Assembly: GCA_017483465.1 (NCBI GenBank)
Contig: JAFUWN010000109.1
Coordinates: 1-48,799 of the forward strand
Length of the DNA stretch: 48,799 bases
Origin: Oscillospiraceae bacterium
GTDB taxonomy: Bacteria; Bacillota; Clostridia; Oscillospirales; Ruminococcaceae
Direction: 5' to 3'
This document shows, piece after piece, positions 33,601 through 47,661 of the stretch. The notes beneath the pieces are model-generated. The model had not been told where the DNA came from. It ran no database searches and was given only the letters and a program-made list of their open reading frames with translations. The translations under genes and the position numbers were made by a program. Every line of letters begins with the position of its first letter. The first letter of the stretch is position 1.

Positions 33601-34344
33601 CTATCTGTTGAAATTTGTTCTTTGTCTTACAATTTCATACATAAAAATGCCGGCGGCGACAGATGCGTTCAGTGAAGTGATTTTCCCCAGCATCGGCAGC
33701 TTTACAAGAAAATCACATTTTTCACGGACAAGGCGGCTCATGCCGTTTCCCTCCGAGCCGATGACCAGTGCCGCCGCACCGTCAAACGAAGTTTCCGTAT
33801 AGAGTGTGCCGTTCATATCCGTGCCGTAAATCCAGATGCCATGCTGTTTGAGTTTGTCAATCGCAGCGGCGATATTCGGCACACGGGCAACAGGCACATA
33901 GCTTGCCGCACCGGCGGAAGTTTTATAAACTGTCGGTGAAAGTGCTGCACTCCGCCGTTTGGGGATGATTATGCCGTCTGCTCCGGCAGTTTCGGCAGTA
34001 CGGATGATCGCACCCAGATTATGCGGGTCTTCGATCTCGTCACAGATAATCAGAAACGGCTTAGAGCCTTTCTGTTCCGAAACGGCGAGCAGATCTTCCA
34101 GGCTGACATAAGAAGCACAGGCACCAAAGGCAACAACCCCCTGATGCACACCGCCTTCGGCAAGCTGGTTAAGTTTCTGTTCATTAGCAGTTTTGACAAC
34201 CGCACCGTTCTGCCGGGCGAGTTCACGGATTTCTCCGAGACTTCCGCCGCTTCCGCTGAGGTAGACGGTATCAATCGTCTGGCCGCTGCGGAGTGCTTCA
34301 CGCACAGGATTGCGGCCGATGATCATATTTTCTTTTTCGGGCAT
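33601..34344 (-). CDS. rlmB: 23S rRNA 2'-O-ribose methyltransferase, TrmH/RlmB family
   Basis: 247 residues from ATG 34344, six bases after AAAGGTG; a GTG at 34353 lies inside the ribosome site. The N-terminal substrate-binding part begins MIIGRNPVREALRSG. SPOUT knot motifs are CDEIEDPHNLGAIIRTAETAGADG near residue 105, LVIGSEGNGMSRLVRE near 196 and LNASVAAGIFMYE near 228. RlmB methylates G2251-equivalent of 23S rRNA; related TrmH enzymes act on tRNA, and the exact target is inferred. Confidence 0.92.
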   Translation of the reverse strand: MPEKENMIIGRNPVREALRSGQTIDTVYLSGSGGSLGEIRELARQNGAVVKTANEQKLNQLAEGGVHQGVVAFGACASYVSLEDLLAVSEQKGSKPFLIICDEIEDPHNLGAIIRTAETAGADGIIIPKRRSAALSPTVYKTSAGAASYVPVARVPNIAAAIDKLKQHGIWIYGTDMNGTLYTETSFDGAAALVIGSEGNGMSRLVREKCDFLVKLPMLGKITSLNASVAAGIFMYEIVRQRTNFNR

Positions 34345-34390
34345 AGCATTCACCTTTCTGTAGACGGGAATTTTTTTTGCAGTTATTATT

Positions 34391-34820: not shown

Positions 34821-35429
34821 TTAATACTGACTGGCAACCTCAGTAAGAGAATCAATCAGGCTGTCATCACTGCCGGCACCGAGCCAGCTGGAATAAGGTG
34901 TTTTAGTACGTTCCGAAGCGGAAGTTTTTCTGGCAGAATAATAGCCGACATAATTCGTAGTAACGGAATCAGCGGTAATGCTGCCCTGTACGATATAATT
35001 ATTGATATAAACAGCCCAGCACTTATTTTCCGCACCGGAAACGGTTCTGTTGACTTCTCTCACGATTCTTGCCACAGCAGCTTCCGTCACATCGCCGCTG
35101 TGATCGGCACTCAAGGCAATATTGGGGGATGGCAGGGAATCTACTGTTGGAATATAAGAAAACCTGCCGTTCTCATAAGCAATCTGAACAATTCCCTCTA
35201 AACCGCTCTTATCACTGGCTACACGATCGATAGAAATGCATTTTTGTGCGGATGTCTGTGCGGCATTATAGACCATTTTCGCATCAGAATTTGAAGATTT
35301 AATACGGGACTTCCAATAATAAGTTGACATAGTAGGTGCAAGGATTGCCGCTAAAATGCCGATGATTGCAATTACTACAATCATTTCAGTCAGAGTAAAA
35401 CCTTTTACTCTCCGAAGTTTATTTTTCAT
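34821..35429 (-). CDS. Type IV pilin-like protein
   Basis: A 202-residue prepilin-like protein. The short basic leader MKNKLRRVKG is followed by FTLTEMIVVIAIIGILAAI, the N-methylation/cleavage site and hydrophobic helix of type IV pilins and pseudopilins, with the conserved Glu at +5. A variable globular C-terminal part follows. GAGGTG precedes the ATG. It has its own promoter and terminator and no assembly ATPase or prepilin peptidase nearby. It could build a pilus (possibly adhesive to cellulose, as in ruminococci) or a pseudopilus. Confidence 0.9.
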   Translation of the reverse strand: MKNKLRRVKGFTLTEMIVVIAIIGILAAILAPTMSTYYWKSRIKSSNSDAKMVYNAAQTSAQKCISIDRVASDKSGLEGIVQIAYENGRFSYIPTVDSLPSPNIALSADHSGDVTEAAVARIVREVNRTVSGAENKCWAVYINNYIVQGSITADSVTTNYVGYYSARKTSASERTKTPYSSWLGAGSDDSLIDSLTEVASQY

Positions 35430-35586: not shown

Positions 35587-36093
35587 TTAAGACCATGTGC
35601 CGGTTTCGGCAAAAGCGATAGCATTGGCAATGGTATTATTCGTGTCATGCTTTGTGTTATTAGGCATAGGATATGTGCCGAAATATACGTCTGAAGTGGA
35701 TTTTCTCCAGCAGGTGGCAATTACAGCATCATCCTTGATCTTGACAGCCCAGTCCTTATCTACCAGATTATCGTGATACTGATAAATATATCTTGCAATG
35801 ACAGGATCATAGACAAGAGAATTTTCATCAGTCGGTTCTGCCGGGTTTGAGGAATTTCCTGTGTAGATTCCGGCAGGAATCGGGTGTACAATATCCTGTT
35901 CACGGCAGGCAACCATGCCGGCATTGAACAAAGTTTTGGCGGTAGAATTTGCCGAAGAAAATTTTGCTTTTGATACATAACCAAGCATACTCGGAACAAG
36001 AATTGCTGCTAAAACACCGATAATGGCAATGACAACAATCAGTTCCACCAAAGTGAAGCCTTTCGGATTTGTGAATATTTTCTCTCTTTTCAT
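35587..36093 (-). CDS. Type IV pilin-like protein, second copy
   Basis: 168 residues from ATG 36093 (MKREKIFTNPKG), eight bases after a G-rich ribosome site; the in-frame TTG at 36099 is less likely. The cleavage motif and helix read GFTLVELIVVIAIIGVLAAI, a textbook prepilin with Glu at +5. The C-terminal domain differs from the neighbouring pilin. It is transcribed from its own strong promoter, divergent from the oligopeptide-binding protein gene. The two pilins share only the N-terminal helix. Confidence 0.92.
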   Translation of the reverse strand: MKREKIFTNPKGFTLVELIVVIAIIGVLAAILVPSMLGYVSKAKFSSANSTAKTLFNAGMVACREQDIVHPIPAGIYTGNSSNPAEPTDENSLVYDPVIARYIYQYHDNLVDKDWAVKIKDDAVIATCWRKSTSDVYFGTYPMPNNTKHDTNNTIANAIAFAETGTWS

Positions 36094-36152
36094 CTTCAAC
36101 GCCCCCTTAAACAGTGAGTATAAAACTTGAACAGATACTTGTTTTATAATAC

Positions 36153-40423: not shown

Positions 40424-40428
40424 AAAAA

Positions 40429-40456
40429 ACAGTACAGGTTTTGATACCCGTACTGT
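40429..40456. terminator. Terminator between convergent genes
   Basis: ACAGTAC (40429-40435) pairs with GTACTGT (40450-40456), with further pairing inside. A T-run follows on both strands (ATTTTTT on plus, TTTTTTTC on minus), so it serves the LRR gene and the TM2-protein gene. Confidence 0.85.
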
Positions 40457-40462
40457 CATTTT

Positions 40463-40873
40463 TTATTTCAGAAGATTTCCGTCTTTATCATAGAAAGCAT
40501 TGGTTAAGATCATAATCAGATCTATCAGTGTTCCCAGTCCGAACAGTCCTCCGGTCAGAAGCCATAACAGACCTGTTCCGAACTTTCCGGAATAGAATCT
40601 GTGCAGACCCCCAAGGCCGATAAAGCCCAGCAGACACATCAGCAGAGCTGGTTTCTTATGACGGGGTACGGCTGCCGCCGGTGAAAAACTGCCCTGTACA
40701 TTCATCTGATAATTTTTGAGATAATCCGGATATTGTTTCTTTTGTACTGTCGGCACCTGCGGCTGCTGAAAATTCTGTATCTGTACCGGCTGAGGTTCTT
40801 CGACCTCACAGCGGCAGTAAGAGCAGATTTTCTCGTTTGGGGTCAGATTTGCACCACAGTGATTGCATATCAT
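40463..40873 (-). CDS. Zinc-ribbon and TM2 domain protein
   Basis: A 136-residue protein. Residues 3-21 form a zinc ribbon (CNHCGA, CSYCRC). A Gln/Pro-rich linker follows. Residues 72-122 are a TM2 domain ([25 protein letters not shown] then two helices with DLIMIL), including the GxHRFY signature. TM2 proteins are small membrane proteins of mostly unknown role. AAGGAGG precedes the ATG, and it begins 12 bases after the GTPase-NYN gene, so it is in its operon. Confidence 0.88.
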
Positions 40874-40885
40874 AAAAATACCTCC

Positions 40886-43456
40886 TTATCCGTTTTGATT
40901 CAGATATTCCTGAATATAATGTTCGGCATTCAGAACCTCCTGTCTCAGTTCTTCGGCAGACATGCGATAAGCACCGTTTCCGAGAATGATCATCTGCTCG
41001 GTTCCGTCCGAAGTAGCCACCCTGACTCTGTGTTCTTTGGTCAGATCATGGGAAATACGTTCAATATACGTATCAGCCGTTTCAGCTTCTTTCGTATAGA
41101 CAACATGGATATTCCTGCTGATTTCCTCGATACTGCCGGGATTTCCCTTGACTTTATAGGCATCGAAAACAATAATCATTCTGCACCGGCGGATTCCCTG
41201 ATAATTGCTTAATTTATGAATCAGTTCCGCACGGGCGGCCTCGAGGCTTTCGGCAGCGATCTGTGAAAGCGTTTCCCAGGAAAAGATAATATTATAGCCG
41301 TCTACCAGTAAATATTCCTCGCCTTTAGGGACAGGCTTTGCCTTATATTTCACCTGTTTTTCCGTATGCATGACATGAGCATCATCCCGTTCGTCATGCT
41401 GAATTTTTCCGTAAGTCTGCTCAAAAATTTTCATTAATTCCGCATCCTGTGCATAGCTTCCGGTATAGGCCTGACGGACAGATTTATGAACTTGTTCCGG
41501 CTGAGTCTGAGTTTCCGGTTTCAGACAGCTTTCTGTATGCATATAATTCTGCACTTCATTCCATTTGACGAGAACGCCGGCACCGTGAGAGCAGAAAACA
41601 GAATCCGGTGAATGTTCGGGATCGGCTTCCGGATGATAATCAAATTTCTGAATCACTTCTTCCGGATTGGCACAGGGGGCATATCCGGCAGGCAGACAGG
41701 AGAGCACGCCTCTGCCTCTGGTGTATTCCATGACATTTGTCCGATATGTCATCATAACCGCAGCCGGAGCTTTTCCCTCGATGACGGAAAATTCTCCGAA
41801 CGTCTGAGGCGGTTCGAGCTTTGCCCCCTTCATCTGCAAATCCGTGACGGCTCTGCCGAGAGATCCTGCCGGAAGTTTCAGCGTAAACTGATAATACGGC
41901 TCCAGCAGAACAGATTCTGCCTGCATTAGCCCCTGCCGGACGGCTCTGTAAGTTGCCTGTCGGAAGTCGCCGCCTTCGGTATGTTTTTTATGGGCTTTTC
42001 CGGCCGTAAGTGTAATTTTCATATCTGTGATCGGAGAACCGGTCAGAACACCGAGGTGCTGTCGTTCTGCTAGATGCGATAAAATCAGTCTCTGCCAGTT
42101 TCTGTCGAGCTGATCTTCCCGGCAGGTGCTGGAGAAAATCAGTCCGGAACCGGCCGGAGCAGGTTCCAGTAACAGTCTGACTTCGGCATAATGCCGGAGC
42201 GGTTCATAATGCCCCATACCCTCGACTGTATTTTTGATACTCTCTTTATAGGCAACCCCGGCGGCCTGAAATTCAGCCGGAATATCAAATCTTTCTTTCA
42301 GAATATGCTGAATCACAGCAAGCTGAATCTCGCCCATCAACAGCACATGAATTTCCTGTAACTGTTTCGAGAAGCTGACATGCAGAAGCGGATCTTCCTG
42401 CTCCAGTTTCCGGAAAGCCATCAGAGCCGTATGTATCTGAACCGTTTCCGGCAGAATCACAGAATATTGCAGAATCGGTTCCAGCAGGGGAGTATCTGTA
42501 TTTTTCTCGATTCCGAGGCCCTCGCCTGCGTAAGTATGGGATAATCCGGTGACGGCACAGGTCATGCCATGAAAGACTTTATCCGCAGGCTGGAATTTCG
42601 CACCGGAATATAATCTGATCTGATTAATTTTCTCCTGCCATTTTGTGCCGTCAGGAGCAGTATCTTCGAGAATATCGCGGACATGCAGTTCACCGCCGGT
42701 AATTTTCAGATGCGTCAGCCGTTTTCCCTGTTCATCTTCGGTAATTTTATAGACTTTTGCTCCGAATTCCGGACACTCCGGAAGCGGAAGCGTATAAGCA
42801 GCAAGCAGATTCAGAAATGCTTCTGTACCCTGCAATTTCAGACCCGAACCGAATACGCACGGAAATACATGTCTTTGCAGAATCGCCTGTGAAATCGCTG
42901 AAATATCAGCTGTTCCGGAATCAAGTATCTGATTCATGAGTGTTTCATCACAGGTAGCAAGAGAATCATAGAACTCCTGATTCTGTTCGGAAAAATCAAC
43001 ACAGTTTTTATGCAGATGTATCTGAAGCTCCTGCATGAGTTCAGTTCTGGATTTCAGCGACAAATCCATTTTATTGATAAAAATAAACACCGGAACATGA
43101 CTGTGATGCAGAAGTTTCCAGAGGGTTTCCGTGTGGCTCTGAATGCCCTCCGAACCGCTGATGACTAAAACAGCATAATCCATAACATGCAGAGCACGTT
43201 CCATTTCGGCAGAAAAATCGACATGTCCGGGGGTATCGAGCAGAGTAAAATCCGCATCGGGAAGTGTCAGGCGAGCCTGTTTCGAGAAGATTGTAATTCC
43301 CCGTTCCCGTTCGAGTGTCTCGGTATCTAAAAAAGCATCTTTATGATCGACACGGCCTGTTTTTTTCAGTACACCGGCATGATAGAGCAAGGCTTCGGAA
43401 AGTGTAGTCTTTCCGGAATCGACATGTGCCAGAATTCCGACAGTAAGATATTTCAA
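40886..43456 (-). CDS. TetM-like translational GTPase fused to a YacP/Rae1-type NYN nuclease domain
   Basis: About 856 residues. A TetM/EF-G-type factor occupies 1-640: P-loop AHVDSGKTTLSEALL, G2 RGITIF, G3 DTPGHVDF, G4 NKMD, and domain IV features near 540-640. A linker of about 70 residues leads to an NYN domain (from about residue 713) with acidic residues in VDGYNIIF, VFDAY, TADTYIE and TSDGTEQ. Rae1 of Bacillus is a ribosome-associated mRNA nuclease of this family that works in the A site. Fusion to a ribosome-binding GTPase suggests GTPase-guided ribosome-associated RNA cleavage. Start: TTG 43456, eight bases after AGGAGG, fits better than ATG 43462. Confidence 0.92.
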   Translation of the reverse strand: MKYLTVGILAHVDSGKTTLSEALLYHAGVLKKTGRVDHKDAFLDTETLERERGITIFSKQARLTLPDADFTLLDTPGHVDFSAEMERALHVMDYAVLVISGSEGIQSHTETLWKLLHHSHVPVFIFINKMDLSLKSRTELMQELQIHLHKNCVDFSEQNQEFYDSLATCDETLMNQILDSGTADISAISQAILQRHVFPCVFGSGLKLQGTEAFLNLLAAYTLPLPECPEFGAKVYKITEDEQGKRLTHLKITGGELHVRDILEDTAPDGTKWQEKINQIRLYSGAKFQPADKVFHGMTCAVTGLSHTYAGEGLGIEKNTDTPLLEPILQYSVILPETVQIHTALMAFRKLEQEDPLLHVSFSKQLQEIHVLLMGEIQLAVIQHILKERFDIPAEFQAAGVAYKESIKNTVEGMGHYEPLRHYAEVRLLLEPAPAGSGLIFSSTCREDQLDRNWQRLILSHLAERQHLGVLTGSPITDMKITLTAGKAHKKHTEGGDFRQATYRAVRQGLMQAESVLLEPYYQFTLKLPAGSLGRAVTDLQMKGAKLEPPQTFGEFSVIEGKAPAAVMMTYRTNVMEYTRGRGVLSCLPAGYAPCANPEEVIQKFDYHPEADPEHSPDSVFCSHGAGVLVKWNEVQNYMHTESCLKPETQTQPEQVHKSVRQAYTGSYAQDAELMKIFEQTYGKIQHDERDDAHVMHTEKQVKYKAKPVPKGEEYLLVDGYNIIFSWETLSQIAAESLEAARAELIHKLSNYQGIRRCRMIIVFDAYKVKGNPGSIEEISRNIHVVYTKEAETADTYIERISHDLTKEHRVRVATSDGTEQMIILGNGAYRMSAEELRQEVLNAEHYIQEYLNQNG

Positions 43457-43485
43457 AAGCATTCCCTCCTTTCTTTATTAGCTTT

Positions 43486-43518: not shown

Positions 43519-44364
43519 TTATTCCGGAAACTGTACATGTCCTGTCTGAATTTCATCCGGAGTCAGAGGAATATCATAATCAATGATCACATCACCGTAA
43601 ATATCTGTAATCCGGAATGTAAAAGGCCCTGCACCGAGGTTCATGCTCTCGAAATAATTATAATTTCTTCTGGGAAGTTCAATAAAATTGCCGTCAGAAT
43701 CAAGATATTCGAGTTTCGTAATCGGGTATCTATGATTTCTGACCTGCACACCGCACCAGAATTCCGTACTGCCTTCTTTATACTTATAAGAAACAGGAGC
43801 ATCGGCGGCACTGTCGAGCGGAATAATTTTCCAGGTCACGGGTACACGGCCTTTCTCAACAGGAGCGATTAACGGGAATGCTTCGGTATACAAATCCAGA
43901 TCGCCTTTTTTGCCTTCGGGGAGTAAATCCGTCACAAGCACATGAATCGTACCGGATTCGCCTGTGACTTCCAGATAGGCTCCGGCGAGCTGAGCCGTGT
44001 TATAATCTTCCAGATTCATAGCTGTAATCCAGTAATCGTCTTTAGAAATCGGGTCGAGCATGGCACAGCCGCCCTCATAGCCGCCGCCGTAGAAAGTTGC
44101 ATCGCCGGAATGTACAGTATTTTTAGGTTCGAGAACATCTTCTTCCGAGGGCAGACCTCTGCGTTTGAGCAGAATCCAGTCATAAATATTGACCTGATTG
44201 TCATGATTCAGATCATAGGCAGGAGAAACCGGCTCGGAACGCTGTAACAGACTGTCCTGAAGCGTTCTGACCGAAAGCTGTTCCGCACCGGCCGGAATAC
44301 TTCCGGCAAGCAGCAGAAAACCGCAGAATAATCCGGTAATTCTGATTATTTTTTTCATCATCAT
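43519..44364 (-). CDS. Secreted expansin (EXLX1/YoaJ type) with an N-terminal dockerin repeat
   Basis: 281 residues from ATG 44364, eight bases after AAAGGG; the longer frame runs through a hairpin and is rejected. A signal peptide (1-28) is followed by one dockerin unit (YDLNHDNQVNIYDWILLKRRGL, about 51-72). The expansin part starts near SGDATFYGGG: a double-psi barrel with VTDLLPEGKKGDLDLYTEAF carrying the key Asp, then a CBM63-like domain (FWCGVQVRNHRYPITKLEY) ending GHVQFPE, as in Bacillus EXLX1. One of the two adjacent Trp of the binding surface is Phe here. Expansins loosen cellulose without hydrolysis; the dockerin suggests cellulosome attachment. Confidence 0.93.
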   Translation of the reverse strand: MMMKKIIRITGLFCGFLLLAGSIPAGAEQLSVRTLQDSLLQRSEPVSPAYDLNHDNQVNIYDWILLKRRGLPSEEDVLEPKNTVHSGDATFYGGGYEGGCAMLDPISKDDYWITAMNLEDYNTAQLAGAYLEVTGESGTIHVLVTDLLPEGKKGDLDLYTEAFPLIAPVEKGRVPVTWKIIPLDSAADAPVSYKYKEGSTEFWCGVQVRNHRYPITKLEYLDSDGNFIELPRRNYNYFESMNLGAGPFTFRITDIYGDVIIDYDIPLTPDEIQTGHVQFPE

Positions 44365-44387
44365 AATAAATTCCCTTTCTGATACTG

Positions 44388-44415
44388 AAAAAGCTGCCGC
44401 AACTGCGGCAGCTTT
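44388..44415 (-). terminator. Terminator-like hairpin upstream of the expansin gene
   Basis: A near-perfect inverted repeat (44390-44401 with 44404-44415) followed by T-rich sequence on the minus strand. It lies after the stop of the deaminase-fold gene and ends only about 24 bases before the expansin ATG, with no promoter in between. Confidence 0.85.
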
Positions 44416-44430
44416 CTGAACAGGCATTGT

Positions 44431-45723
44431 TTATTTTTTTCTCTTGAAAGCATTGTCAAGCCTTGCCATTTTCTTTTTTTCCTTTGCCTGCCGCATCATA
44501 TCGGCATCGGCAGAATTATCCGCACCGGAAGAGGAAGCAGTATCATCAGGATCATCCATGAAGTTGGCAAGACGGTTTTTAAAAGTCGAACCGTCACTTT
44601 TGGCCGGAACAGTACCTGTCTGAGAATAATAATTCGACTGCTGATAAGCAGAAACCTGCTGACTGTGTGCGGCCGGCTGGCTGACATACATACTCTGCGG
44701 CTGATTGGGCTGCATATACATGCTCTGCGGCTGGTTCGGCTGCATGTACATACTCTGCGGCTGGTTGGGCTGCATATACATGCTCTGCGGCTGATTGGGC
44801 TGCATGTACATACTCTGCGGCTGATTGGGCTGCATGTACATACTCTGCGGCTGATTGGACTGCTGCTGCATATATACGCTCTGCTGAGCACGCTGTGCAT
44901 AGCCGTACTGCTGAGCATAGCCATACTGCGGCTGCTGCTGTGCATAACCGTACTGCGGCTGCTGATAGCCATACGGCTGCTGCTGCGGATAAGGCTGAGC
45001 CATTGTCTGCGGAGCAGCATTCGGAGCAGCTCCCTGCTGATAAAAAGGATTGCCCTGATCGGTAGCGGCCGGCTGAGCCTGCGGCTGTTCTTCTTCTTCG
45101 GGTTCTTCAGGAGCTTCGGCGGCCTCAAAACCGAAATCACCGTCTGCGGAGAAACCGGTGAAATCATTGGCAGAAGCTAAAGGATTCTTCGGGGCTTTAT
45201 TCATTGCCGGAGGCGGTGCAGCAGCAGCAGATTCGGCTGCAAATCCTTCTTTCGGAGCTTCGGACTGTGCTGCCGGTTCTTCAGGAGCTGGTGTACCGGC
45301 CATCGGGATAGGAGCGGCTTCTGCTTCCGCATTGGGAGCGAAGAGTTCCGAAGCCTTGACGGTCTGATCCGGAGCAGTAAAGATTTCTGCATTCTGGTTG
45401 CCCGGGTTTGCACGATACAGCAGACGGAAGCATTCTTCACAAGGCTGCTTGATTTCCAGCGTACTGAACGAAACAGTTACTAATTTTTCAATCAGAGTTT
45501 CTCCGGAAGGAATCATTGACATGATTGCATTATACTCCGGACAGGAACGCATAACTTTTCCTGCACTGACTTTTACGCTTGTCACACCGGCATAGACTGC
45601 CTGTTTTTCGGATGTCACAAGCACACAAAGTTCGGAATCGCTGCCGGAAACCAGCTGCGGTTCAATATTCTTGATATCCTCGGTCAGTTTCACAGCAAGA
45701 TTATAAAATTCCTGAGATTCCAT
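44431..45723 (-). CDS. Cytidine-deaminase-fold protein with Q/P-rich tail and tandem decapeptide repeat
   Basis: A 430-residue protein. Residues 1-125 fit the cytidine deaminase fold: VLVTSEKQAVYAGV, then C61-P-E63 (compare CAE) and P94-C-E-E-C98 (compare PCxxC). The 34-residue spacing between the first two Cys equals that in human cytidine deaminase, so zinc ligands and catalytic Glu are intact. The nucleoside-binding NxE motif is not obvious. Residues 125-230 are Ala/Pro/Glu rich, and 230-345 Gln/Pro/Tyr rich with copies of MYMQPNQPQS. The basic C-terminus ends FKRKK. No signal peptide. Substrate and role unknown. Confidence 0.75.
   Translation of the reverse strand: MESQEFYNLAVKLTEDIKNIEPQLVSGSDSELCVLVTSEKQAVYAGVTSVKVSAGKVMRSCPEYNAIMSMIPSGETLIEKLVTVSFSTLEIKQPCEECFRLLYRANPGNQNAEIFTAPDQTVKASELFAPNAEAEAAPIPMAGTPAPEEPAAQSEAPKEGFAAESAAAAPPPAMNKAPKNPLASANDFTGFSADGDFGFEAAEAPEEPEEEEQPQAQPAATDQGNPFYQQGAAPNAAPQTMAQPYPQQQPYGYQQPQYGYAQQQPQYGYAQQYGYAQRAQQSVYMQQQSNQPQSMYMQPNQPQSMYMQPNQPQSMYMQPNQPQSMYMQPNQPQSMYMQPNQPQSMYVSQPAAHSQQVSAYQQSNYYSQTGTVPAKSDGSTFKNRLANFMDDPDDTASSSGADNSADADMMRQAKEKKKMARLDNAFKRKK
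44691..44860 (-). repeat. Tandem 30-bp repeat encoding a decapeptide
   Basis: Five full 30-bp units starting at 44691, 44721, 44751, 44781 and 44811, plus a partial sixth, differing at only a few positions. Each encodes MYMQPNQPQS in the deaminase-fold protein. The high identity suggests recent expansion and probable copy-number variation. It is coding and in frame, so not a CRISPR array. Confidence 0.95.
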
Positions 45724-45754: not shown

Positions 45755-46663
45755 TTATGCCTGACTGAAGAAGCAAGGTCTGTCCTTGCCGTTGGCCTTG
45801 GCATTGTAAACGGCCATGATGGCACTGTCAAGCAAAGTTTCAGAAGTTCTGCCGTCACGGGGATGGACGACAATGCCATAGCTGGCAGTCAAAGAGAGAT
45901 TGGCACCCTGTACGCTGACAGGTTCACCGAACAGGCGGCGGAGCTGTTCGATTGTGTTCAGGACATCGGCTTCGGTCTGTTCGCCGCTCATCAGCACACC
46001 AAATTCGTCACTGGTTCTGGCAGAGATGTATTTATTGCCGCAGTAACCGGAAATACGTTCAGCGAAAACTTTCATTGCGGCATCGCCGGTCTTGGGGCCG
46101 AACGTGTCGTTAATGCCCTTGAAGTTATCAATATCAATATAGATAATCGTAAAAGGCACCTGATTTTTAACAGCTTCGTCAATCTGTTCACGGAAATAAT
46201 GCATATTATTCATACCGCTCTGGCGGTCATGATACGCAAGTGTTCTGAGGGCTTCATCTTTTTCCTGAAGCAGACGGTTCGCATCCATGATCTGTTCATA
46301 CTGTTTGGAAAGCTCTGCACGCTGGGTTTCGCTTCTGTCCAGAAAGTAATAGATGAAATACAGCATCAGGATGGAAATGACATCAATAGCAACGCCCTGC
46401 AAAGCCGTGGTCTGACCGTTTATATAGGCCATCAGAGCCATTAAAGTAGCGAAAACGTTCAGAACACAGCCGGCAATAAAGCCTCTTTTCCCGTTGGTGA
46501 CAACCAGTGCAGTAGAAATGGCAATTTCCACCACAGAACCGATGCCCACATAAGGCCGCAGCGAATCCGGCAGAAGAGGCCCCATAAGGAGATACATGAT
46601 GATGTATAAAATAATGCAGATTACCATTATGATAATATGTCGGGTTTTGTTTTTTTCTTCCAT
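45755..46663 (-). CDS. Membrane GGDEF protein with degenerate active site
   Basis: 302 residues from ATG 46663 (MEEKNKTRHIIIMVI), with AAAGGATTTGAGG upstream. Four to five membrane helices fill residues 9-118, followed by a short coiled coil and a GGDEF domain from about 140. The signature loop reads ARTSDEFG, so both Gly of GGDEF are replaced (T-S). Diguanylate cyclase activity is doubtful; it may bind c-di-GMP or regulate its paralogue. There is no RxxD inhibitory site next to the loop. It is a tandem duplicate of the next upstream gene, about 60 percent alike over the GGDEF domain by eye. Confidence 0.88.
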   Translation of the reverse strand: MEEKNKTRHIIIMVICIILYIIMYLLMGPLLPDSLRPYVGIGSVVEIAISTALVVTNGKRGFIAGCVLNVFATLMALMAYINGQTTALQGVAIDVISILMLYFIYYFLDRSETQRAELSKQYEQIMDANRLLQEKDEALRTLAYHDRQSGMNNMHYFREQIDEAVKNQVPFTIIYIDIDNFKGINDTFGPKTGDAAMKVFAERISGYCGNKYISARTSDEFGVLMSGEQTEADVLNTIEQLRRLFGEPVSVQGANLSLTASYGIVVHPRDGRTSETLLDSAIMAVYNAKANGKDRPCFFSQA

Positions 46664-46692
46664 AATTACCTCAAATCCTTTTTTTGATTCAG

Positions 46693-46731
46693 CCCCTGTG
46701 CTGTCAGCCGGAAAGACCGGCAGCACAGGGG
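46693..46731 (-). other. Intercistronic hairpin between the two GGDEF genes
   Basis: CCCCTGTGCTG (46693-46703) pairs with CAGCACAGGGG (46721-46731), with a second inner CCGG stem. On the minus strand no T-run follows, so it is more likely an RNA stability or processing element than a terminator. Confidence 0.65.
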
Positions 46732-46743
46732 AAATTTATAGTG

Positions 46744-47661
46744 TTAGCTAAAGAAGCATGGTCTGTCTTTTCCGTTTGCCTTGGCATTGTAAACAGCCAT
46801 GATAGCATGGTCAAGCAGGATTTCCGCATCGTTGCCGTCTTTGGGGCAGGAGACGATGCCGAAGCTTGCTGTGACGCTGAGTGTTGTCATCTGAGCGGTA
46901 ATCTGTTTGCCGAAAATAGAGCGGAGCTGTTCGACAATATTAAGAACATCTGCTTCTGTCTGTTCACCTGTCAGGATAATGCCGAATTCGTCGCCGCTGA
47001 CACGGGCACACACATAGCGGCGGCCGCAGTAAGCAGTTACACGCTCGGCGTAGATCTTCAGTGCGGCATCACCGGTCTTGGGACCGAATGTATCATTGAT
47101 GCTCTTGAAGTTATCAATATCTACATAAAGAATGCTGAACGGCATTTTCAAATTGATGGCTTCATCAACCTTTTCACGGAAATACCGCATGTTATACATG
47201 CCTGTCAGGGCATCGGTATAGGCGATGGCACGGATGGCCTCGTCTTTTTCCTGCATGACACGGTTGACATCCATGATTTTTTCATACTGCTCTTTCAGTT
47301 CCTCACTTTGTTTGGCACTGGTATTCAGATATGTCAGAATAATGGACATTGTGATAATATTCACGATTGGCGTGAAAATACCCGGCAGACCGGTAGCCGA
47401 ATGTGAACGAAGCACAGAAATCGCCGCACTCATGATACTCATAGAAGATAAAATGCAGGCAACAATAAAGCCTCTTTTACGGTTTGTTACAACCATGATC
47501 GTATTCAGCACAACCAGCAGAGAAGAAAGCACACCCATATACGCTGAAACTGCCTCAAGCTTCAACGGTCCCATAATGGCCCACAAAATCAAATAGAAAA
47601 GACTACAGATCACCAGAACCACAATATGCATGGTTTTATTTTTTTCTTGATTTTCATTCAT
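46744..47661 (-). CDS. Membrane diguanylate cyclase-like protein (SGDEF)
   Basis: A 305-residue protein with four to five N-terminal membrane helices (about 9-118), a coiled linker (KQSEELKEQYEKIMDVNRVM) and a GGDEF domain from about 140. The loop reads ARVSGDEFG; SGDEF variants are often active, and the substrate segment DIDNFKSINDTFGPKTGD is intact. It should make cyclic di-GMP. No RxxD product-inhibition site is visible. It precedes its degenerate paralogue and follows the PP2C gene by 48 bases, probably in one operon. Confidence 0.92.
   Translation of the reverse strand: MNENQEKNKTMHIVVLVICSLFYLILWAIMGPLKLEAVSAYMGVLSSLLVVLNTIMVVTNRKRGFIVACILSSMSIMSAAISVLRSHSATGLPGIFTPIVNIITMSIILTYLNTSAKQSEELKEQYEKIMDVNRVMQEKDEAIRAIAYTDALTGMYNMRYFREKVDEAINLKMPFSILYVDIDNFKSINDTFGPKTGDAALKIYAERVTAYCGRRYVCARVSGDEFGIILTGEQTEADVLNIVEQLRSIFGKQITAQMTTLSVTASFGIVSCPKDGNDAEILLDHAIMAVYNAKANGKDRPCFFS

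Follow-up and report, generated by a model that had tools for sequence, protein, structure and literature searches.

A Rae1/YacP-type nuclease fused to an EF-G-like GTPase, widespread in Clostridia and apparently replacing free Rae1

Two described bacterial systems bear on the gene considered here. The first is Rae1 (YacP), characterized in passages of PMC12320835 and PMC6613710 as a ribosome-dependent endonuclease that cuts messenger RNA (mRNA) in the aminoacyl (A) site, where cleavage can precede rescue by transfer-messenger RNA (tmRNA). The second is TetM, a ribosomal guanosine triphosphatase (GTPase) whose Pro509 sits in the tetracycline site and touches C1054, according to a passage of PMC8161019. 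The two meet in a passage of Atkinson 2015 (PMC4342817), where Tet proteins of ten clostridial species are described as carrying a YacP-like NYN domain and resistance via ribonuclease (RNase) activity is suggested. The GTPase-NYN architecture itself has therefore been in print since 2015. A literature search, with the 2018 paper on Rae1 distribution outside its coverage, recognized no other publication as treating the fusion, and no NYN passage was found in PMC8547433. Here we analyze one such fused gene in a 48,799-nucleotide contig (JAFUWN010000109.1, assembly GCA_017483465.1) from an Oscillospiraceae bacterium, referred to in full as the window. The fusion is real, widespread and apparently uncharacterized though in print; what is new is the replacement of Rae1, the tip of GTPase domain IV, the distribution and a functional reading.

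In the fused protein, residues 1-645 are an EF-G/Tet-type translational GTPase, 646-714 form a disordered linker and 715-858 make up a Rae1/YacP NYN nuclease, laid out as follows.

40886..43462, minus strand: whole fused gene, 858 amino acids from the ATG (open reading frame (ORF) call, Pfam)
42794..43450, minus strand: G domain, residues 5-223, with motifs AHVDSGKTT, RGITI, DTPGH and NKMD (Pfam)
42257..42793, minus strand: domains II and III, residues 224-402 (Pfam EFG_III; EF-G fold)
41918..42256, minus strand: domain IV, residues 403-515 (Pfam EFG_IV)
41960..42001, minus strand: domain IV tip loop, residues 488-501, GKAHKKHTEGGDFR; TetM/TetO counterpart GLYYSPVSTPADFR (alignments)
41663..41917, minus strand: domain V, residues 516-600 (Pfam EFG_C)
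41528..41662, minus strand: GTPase C-terminal extension, residues 601-645, FCSHGAG..VKW..V..YMH, also in NYN-less relatives
41321..41527, minus strand: disordered linker, residues 646-714 (low model confidence; low identity, variable length)
40889..41320, minus strand: Rae1/YacP-type NYN nuclease domain, residues 715-858 (Pfam, PDB by sequence, model, Foldseek)
41300..41302, minus strand: predicted active-site Asp D721 (167 of 167 fused ORFs, 37 of 37 free Rae1)
41162..41164, minus strand: predicted active-site Asp D767 (167 of 167 fused ORFs, 37 of 37 free Rae1)
41072..41074, minus strand: predicted active-site Asp D797 (166 of 167 fused ORFs, 37 of 37 free Rae1)
41006..41008, minus strand: predicted active-site Asp D819 (166 of 167 fused ORFs, 37 of 37 free Rae1)

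The initial annotation had begun the gene at 43456, two codons inside the ATG at 43462; either start is possible, because the alignments of many relatives begin at residue 3. Its description of a full set of GTPase motifs with EF-G-like domains is borne out by Pfam matches above cut-off to GTP_EFTU (residues 5-223, 165.8 bits), EFG_III (348-398), EFG_IV (403-515) and EFG_C (518-599). The same holds for its C-terminal NYN domain of about 144 residues with VDGYN, VFDAY, TADTY and TSDGTEQ, all four of which are found and supply D721, D767, D797 and D819; NYN_YacP matches residues 718-855 over profile positions 1-139 of 166, with 163.8 bits against a cut-off of 24.6 (E 4.5e-48). A chance or mis-framed fusion is ruled out, both halves lying far over their Pfam cut-offs. 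By sequence, the nearest solved structures are TetO/TetM for residues 4-598 and Bacillus subtilis Rae1 (5mq8/5mq9) for residues 717-852. An AlphaFold2 model built from 59 aligned full-length fusions has a mean predicted local distance difference test score (pLDDT) of 86.3, which falls to blocks of 42-51 across approximately residues 651-710 of the linker, and the best Foldseek matches of the front half are to EF-G. The NYN part folded alone reaches a pLDDT of 90.5 and matches Rae1 with template-modelling scores of 0.81-0.83 and 41-42% identity (0.82-0.83 and 41% to 5mq9, E 6.7e-12), so the domain is indeed NYN by fold.

The same architecture, sought in other genomes, was recovered in 167 fetched ORFs, some genes being counted twice. 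The four predicted active-site aspartates, whose loss from close homologues the initial annotation had named as telling against its interpretation, are kept in every one of these ORFs that reaches them; in the single ORF without D797 and D819 the contig ends before those positions, and retention extends to fused ORFs as distant as ~35% identity. A smaller alignment of 111 fused proteins comprises the window's protein, 33 relatives, 58 of 69 complete fusions (from 80 loci) and 19 of 20 further loci, and the fusions omitted to keep it small are included in the count of 167. D721, N724, D767, D797 and D819 are invariant in all 111; on the GTPase side, where one protein lacks the region, K18 and H80 are present in 110 of 110 and T57 in 109 of 110, with Ser in the remaining one. 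Averaged over pairs drawn from 34 fusions, identity is 0.563 in NYN and 0.51-0.62 in the GTPase domains, compared with 0.206 in the linker, whose length varies from 61 to 127 residues. Ratios of nonsynonymous to synonymous substitution (dN/dS) in seven same-genus pairs are 0.050-0.090 for NYN, 0.076-0.093 for GTPase residues 224-645 and, in the six pairs where it could be computed, 0.114-0.218 for the linker, all of them rough values because dS, at ~0.8 to 2.6, is near or past saturation. Judged from these comparisons, the nuclease appears to be under as much constraint as the GTPase.

A few members depart from the standard layout. The frames at L118, L120, L243 and L280 are interrupted, which may reflect assembly errors. 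At L280 (G246, a single-contig genome), similarity runs from 6 to 854 in one frame and the open frame is 618 amino acids; the fused gene seems interrupted in its first part because this open frame is shorter than the span of similarity. At L089 the fused protein has 1153 amino acids, with ~300 additional residues ahead of the G domain.

Many Clostridia, gut species included, have Rae1 fused to this elongation-factor-like GTPase. The window's genome contains a single YacP domain, that of the fusion. Together with 60 relatives it makes up a set of 61 genomes, of which 35 have a YacP match, one each; 32 of these lie in frames of 855-1229 amino acids and the other three in frames of 283-600, none being of the size of free Rae1. 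Among 393 genomes of the class, YacP is found in 250 and the GTPase (at E 1e-40) in 164, both in 157 and neither in 136. GTPase frames, listed for 149 of the 164 genomes, are at least 780 amino acids long in 124, and all 124 have a YacP match; both parts were read in one ORF in the 111 aligned proteins and the 167 fetched ORFs rather than in all 124 genomes. None of the 65 listed free-Rae1 genomes, seven of which lie outside the listed frames, belongs to those 124, and a separate gene for the same GTPase occurs in 20 of the 65. Among non-fused genomes, the separate GTPase and free Rae1 are associated (Fisher p 0.0005 from counts of 22/7/93/136, with G246 not counted as short; p 0.0003 with G246, whose gene holds the NYN part, counted as short), an association that is weak since the species are related, and for which the counts were derived by hand and cut-off frames taken as fused. 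In a sample of the phylum, the GTPase is present in 37 of 398 genomes at E 1e-60, some of the frames being of fused length and from genomes that do not belong to the window's class.

The former location of free rae1 is consistent with replacement. In the 20 genomes examined along with our own, over loci extending ~1.5 kb to either side of rlmB (one cut at a contig end), the order rlmB-rae1-sigH is found in four of six free-Rae1 genomes, and no rae1 match lies beside rlmB in any of the 13 fused genomes that have no free Rae1, our own included; sigH is still beyond rlmB in three of these 13.

33601..34353, minus strand: rlmB, the usual upstream neighbor of free rae1, with no rae1 match in the surrounding 3.7 kb

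More than one YacP match is present in five genomes of the class, the second falling under the Pfam cut-off in three of them. One genome (G426, locus L255) contains the fusion together with a broken remnant of free rae1, in two pieces, between rlmB and sigH. Empty rlmB slots and a remnant of this kind are what a takeover by the fusion, with loss of the free gene, would be expected to leave behind. To judge from gene content, then, the fusion is normally the sole Rae1 of its genome, apparently replacing the free protein and mostly not serving as an additional factor.

On a tree of the GTPase from 34 fused and 21 NYN-less rows, one change between the two states suffices (98/95). Independent fusions were considered and set aside, as the tree still requires one change after the addition of 18 divergent fused members and one short row by a quick tree method. 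The fusion may be ancestral with later loss of NYN, the root between fused and short proteins being unsure.

Taken together, we favor the reading, with a probability of about 0.55, that the protein is the cell's Rae1, tethered to an EF-G-like GTPase and cutting mRNA on ribosomes whose A site is open. In terms of sequence, this is based on a single polypeptide with intact GTPase motifs, an intact predicted NYN active site, a Rae1 fold and a flexible linker, and on its taking the place of free Rae1, and the separate GTPase genes of free-Rae1 genomes supply gene-fusion logic for a partnership between GTPase and Rae1. According to this scheme, rae1, formerly encoded after rlmB, would have become tethered to the translational GTPase, the GTP form of which would dock, like EF-G-type factors, at the factor site of ribosomes in which the A site is open, with the HxKHTxGGDFR tip probing the decoding center. 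Upon GTP hydrolysis domain IV would withdraw, and the tethered NYN domain could then take the A site and cut the mRNA, leaving the truncated message to exonucleases and to tmRNA, which is present in the window's genome (182.7 bits). The GTPase would in this way enrich the nuclease locally, and it may also choose which state of the ribosome is acted on. More tentatively, it is possible that in a large share of Clostridia the protein runs mRNA surveillance on the ribosome as a GTP-gated mRNA cutter, its GTPase reading ribosome state via the HxKHTxGGDFR loop, a new one at the decoding center, and handing the A site to the tethered Rae1 in preparation for tmRNA rescue. To our knowledge, no bacterial factor has been described that combines GTPase sensing of ribosome state and mRNA cleavage in one chain.

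Several observations weigh against the favored reading, which has computation as its basis. Domain IV and Rae1 should not both fit in the A site at once, judging from their published positions, so that for delivery the site would have to be handed over from one to the other, or else the nuclease would have to act where the mRNA enters. The tip is altered in L277-L279 (one family) and L273, where the nuclease is intact. There is no conserved neighborhood, the commonest neighbor family occurring in 12 of up to 113 fused loci and on variable strands. As for replacement, one genome (G340) has, besides the fusion, an intact free rae1 within rlmB-rae1-sigH, and an empty slot by itself proves little because rae1 is not beside rlmB in two of the six free-Rae1 genomes (~13 kb away in G107, on a different contig in G265). 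G265 also has a separate GTPase, which groups with the short ones, and a free Rae1 whose NYN domain is the one free member inside the cluster of fused domains on the NYN tree; lying away from the old slot, this Rae1 may be a re-separated copy. Finally, Rae1 can do without such a GTPase, which is missing at E 1e-40 from 93 of the 250 YacP-bearing genomes of the class, and the GTPase is of some use alone, since seven of the 164 GTPase-bearing genomes are without a YacP match.

These last counts, along with the long, disordered and length-variable linker, also favor a simpler arrangement in which the GTPase has a ribosome job of its own (remodelling like that of EF4 or EF-G2), NYN is an ordinary Rae1, and the fusion provides co-expression or local concentration with no GTP gating. 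A single state of fusion in more than 120 sampled species, strong constraint on both halves and, on the tree used, the absence of any fused protein from the NYN-less group make such simple tethering rather unlikely. Less probable still is a nuclease acting on ribosomal RNA (rRNA) or transfer RNA, for maturation or for destruction of faulty ribosomes, with the GTPase targeting subunits or faulty ribosomes. An RNase activity on rRNA was suggested in the cited passage of Atkinson 2015, and free rae1 adjoins mrnC and rlmB, genes of 23S rRNA maturation and modification, but the solved relative, Rae1, at the identity given above, is described in the sources cited at the outset as an mRNA endonuclease of the A site.

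The domain IV tip bears on the tetracycline question. The fused family has the form AHxKHTxGGDFR, with T495 in 111 of 111 proteins, D499 in 109, H494 and F500 in 108 and K493 in 104, whereas the tip of TetM, TetO and TetS is YYSPVSTPADFR, with related forms in tet36-like and otrA-like sequences, and that of Clostridioides difficile EF-G is YHEVDSSEMAF (tip rows listed: seven fused, 21 short and seven reference). SPxSTP is missing from all 111 fused and all 20 short proteins, and K493 is aligned to TetM Pro509, a position at which Pro occurs in none of the fusions. The NCBIfam tet_protect model scores 376.1 bits, below the family threshold of 775, and on the tree 55 family rows separate from five Tet/OtrA-like rows with support of 100/98, albeit with a long-branch warning at the join and with the identity of the five taken from database labels. 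The GTPase had initially been called TetM-like: TetO and TetM are its nearest solved relatives by sequence, but its tip differs and it branches apart from the Tet proteins. The accompanying view that it is not a resistance factor agrees with all of these results. A tetracycline resistance label on the fused genes is probably wrong, because the tip reads HxKHTxGGDFR and has Lys, never Pro, at the position of Pro509. Such labels do occur: two fused relatives are annotated, one as belonging to the TetM/TetW/TetO/TetS family and the other to the translation factor GTPase family. Among 23 plasmid records that match the NYN query, fusion status was read from the annotated records; two of these carry a fused gene, and both are large and typed as non-mobilizable. 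Hence the view of some labels and of the cited proposal of 2015, that the protein protects against tetracycline and may do so by means of its nuclease, is very improbable here, although TetO and TetM are the nearest solved relatives by sequence.

Related records show two further peculiarities. A gene annotated TetM/TetW/TetO/TetS in Ligilactobacillus salivarius UCC118 pMP118 (L236) is 41.6% identical to a short non-Tet GTPase (L200), and its resistance label may be wrong too on account of this identity. Plasmid-collection records L106, L235 and L103 include one of 97 kb from C. difficile and a 129-kb 'plasmid' from B. subtilis; the gene order cysS-mrnC-rlmB-rae1-sigH occurs there along with nusG and ribosomal protein genes, so that they look like pieces of chromosome misfiled as plasmids. 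Eleven further C. difficile records in the plasmid collection have the same kind of match to the NYN query.

Downstream of the fused gene are two features on the same strand.

40463..40873, minus strand: TM2-domain membrane protein, 12 bp downstream of the fusion (TM2 over Pfam cut-off)
40428..40457, minus strand: terminator-like hairpin 3′ of the TM2 gene (hairpin scan, weak)

The TM2 gene had been proposed as a zinc-ribbon/TM2 operon partner. It is adjacent, on the same strand and probably cotranscribed with the fusion here, but its zinc ribbon is under the Pfam cut-off (19.8 versus 25 bits) and of 143 loci it neighbors the fusion in 12, which all come from the window's own genus, many loci being too short to show it; a role as a system component was rejected on these counts. 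The hairpin is weak because four such sites were found against 3.3 expected, and a promoter scan of the window gave results at chance level. A phage or mobile-cargo origin was likewise rejected, as two relatives on viral contigs match residues 3-644 only, with NYN outside the match; the best PHROGs match of the fusion is a translation elongation factor family, and PADLOC returned no match to it.

Other genes of the window (all on the minus strand) merit brief description. At 43519-44427, 56 bp upstream of the fusion, is a gene for a secreted-looking protein with no Pfam match and a close relative in one other locus (L108); it contains what we take to be a dockerin-like segment, DLNHDNQVNIYDWILLKRRG. 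The ORF at 44431..45723, also without a Pfam match, includes at 44679-44863 a 30-bp unit repeated 6.2 times with 91% matches, encoding NQPQSMYMQP repeats of a Gln/Pro-rich protein. The genes at 45755-46726 and 46744-47661 are adjacent and presumably encode paralogous GGDEF-like membrane proteins. One of the two has ARVSGDEF and the other ARTSDEF, such that one seems degenerate at the signature. Two neighboring genes at 34821-35429 and 35587-36099 are presumably prepilin-like (GFTLTEMIVVIAIIG and GFTLVELIVVIAIIG).

That the fusion replaces free Rae1 across many Clostridia suggests a partner that could guide Rae1 in its choice of ribosomes. The fusion would offer this as a single-protein system, and the separate GTPase of certain free-Rae1 genomes is a candidate trans-acting partner. 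In addition, the suggested mislabelling of a common clostridial gene as tetracycline resistance in some records could distort counts of resistance genes.

Comparison with known systems places the fusion as follows. The clostridial Tet-NYN fusions of the ten species in Atkinson 2015 (PMC4342817), compared by the description in the passage cited, have the same architecture and no known difference. Rae1/YacP (B. subtilis, 5mq8, 5mq9) shares the NYN fold, the four acidic residues and usually a single copy per genome, but in the fusion NYN is the C-terminal part of an 858-amino-acid protein, the gene for which lies outside the mrnC-rlmB-rae1-sigH order in our own and 12 other fused genomes. TetM and TetO share the EF-G order of domains, ~27-30% identity and DFR after the tip; the fusion differs from them in having HxKHTxGG in place of YYSPVSTPA, the FCSHGAG C-terminal extension and a separate branch. 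EF-G and EF-G2 have the same fold and GTPase motifs, with 19-24% identity in the structural alignments listed, and the fusion is distinguished from them by its tip loop and by NYN. Nearest on the tree are the NYN-less 'translation factor GTPases' (~650 amino acids) of other Clostridia, with relatives in Paenibacillus and Ligilactobacillus: in the aligned clostridial rows their tip and C-terminal extension are the same as those of the fusion, but they end after the extension, and Rae1, if present, is encoded elsewhere.

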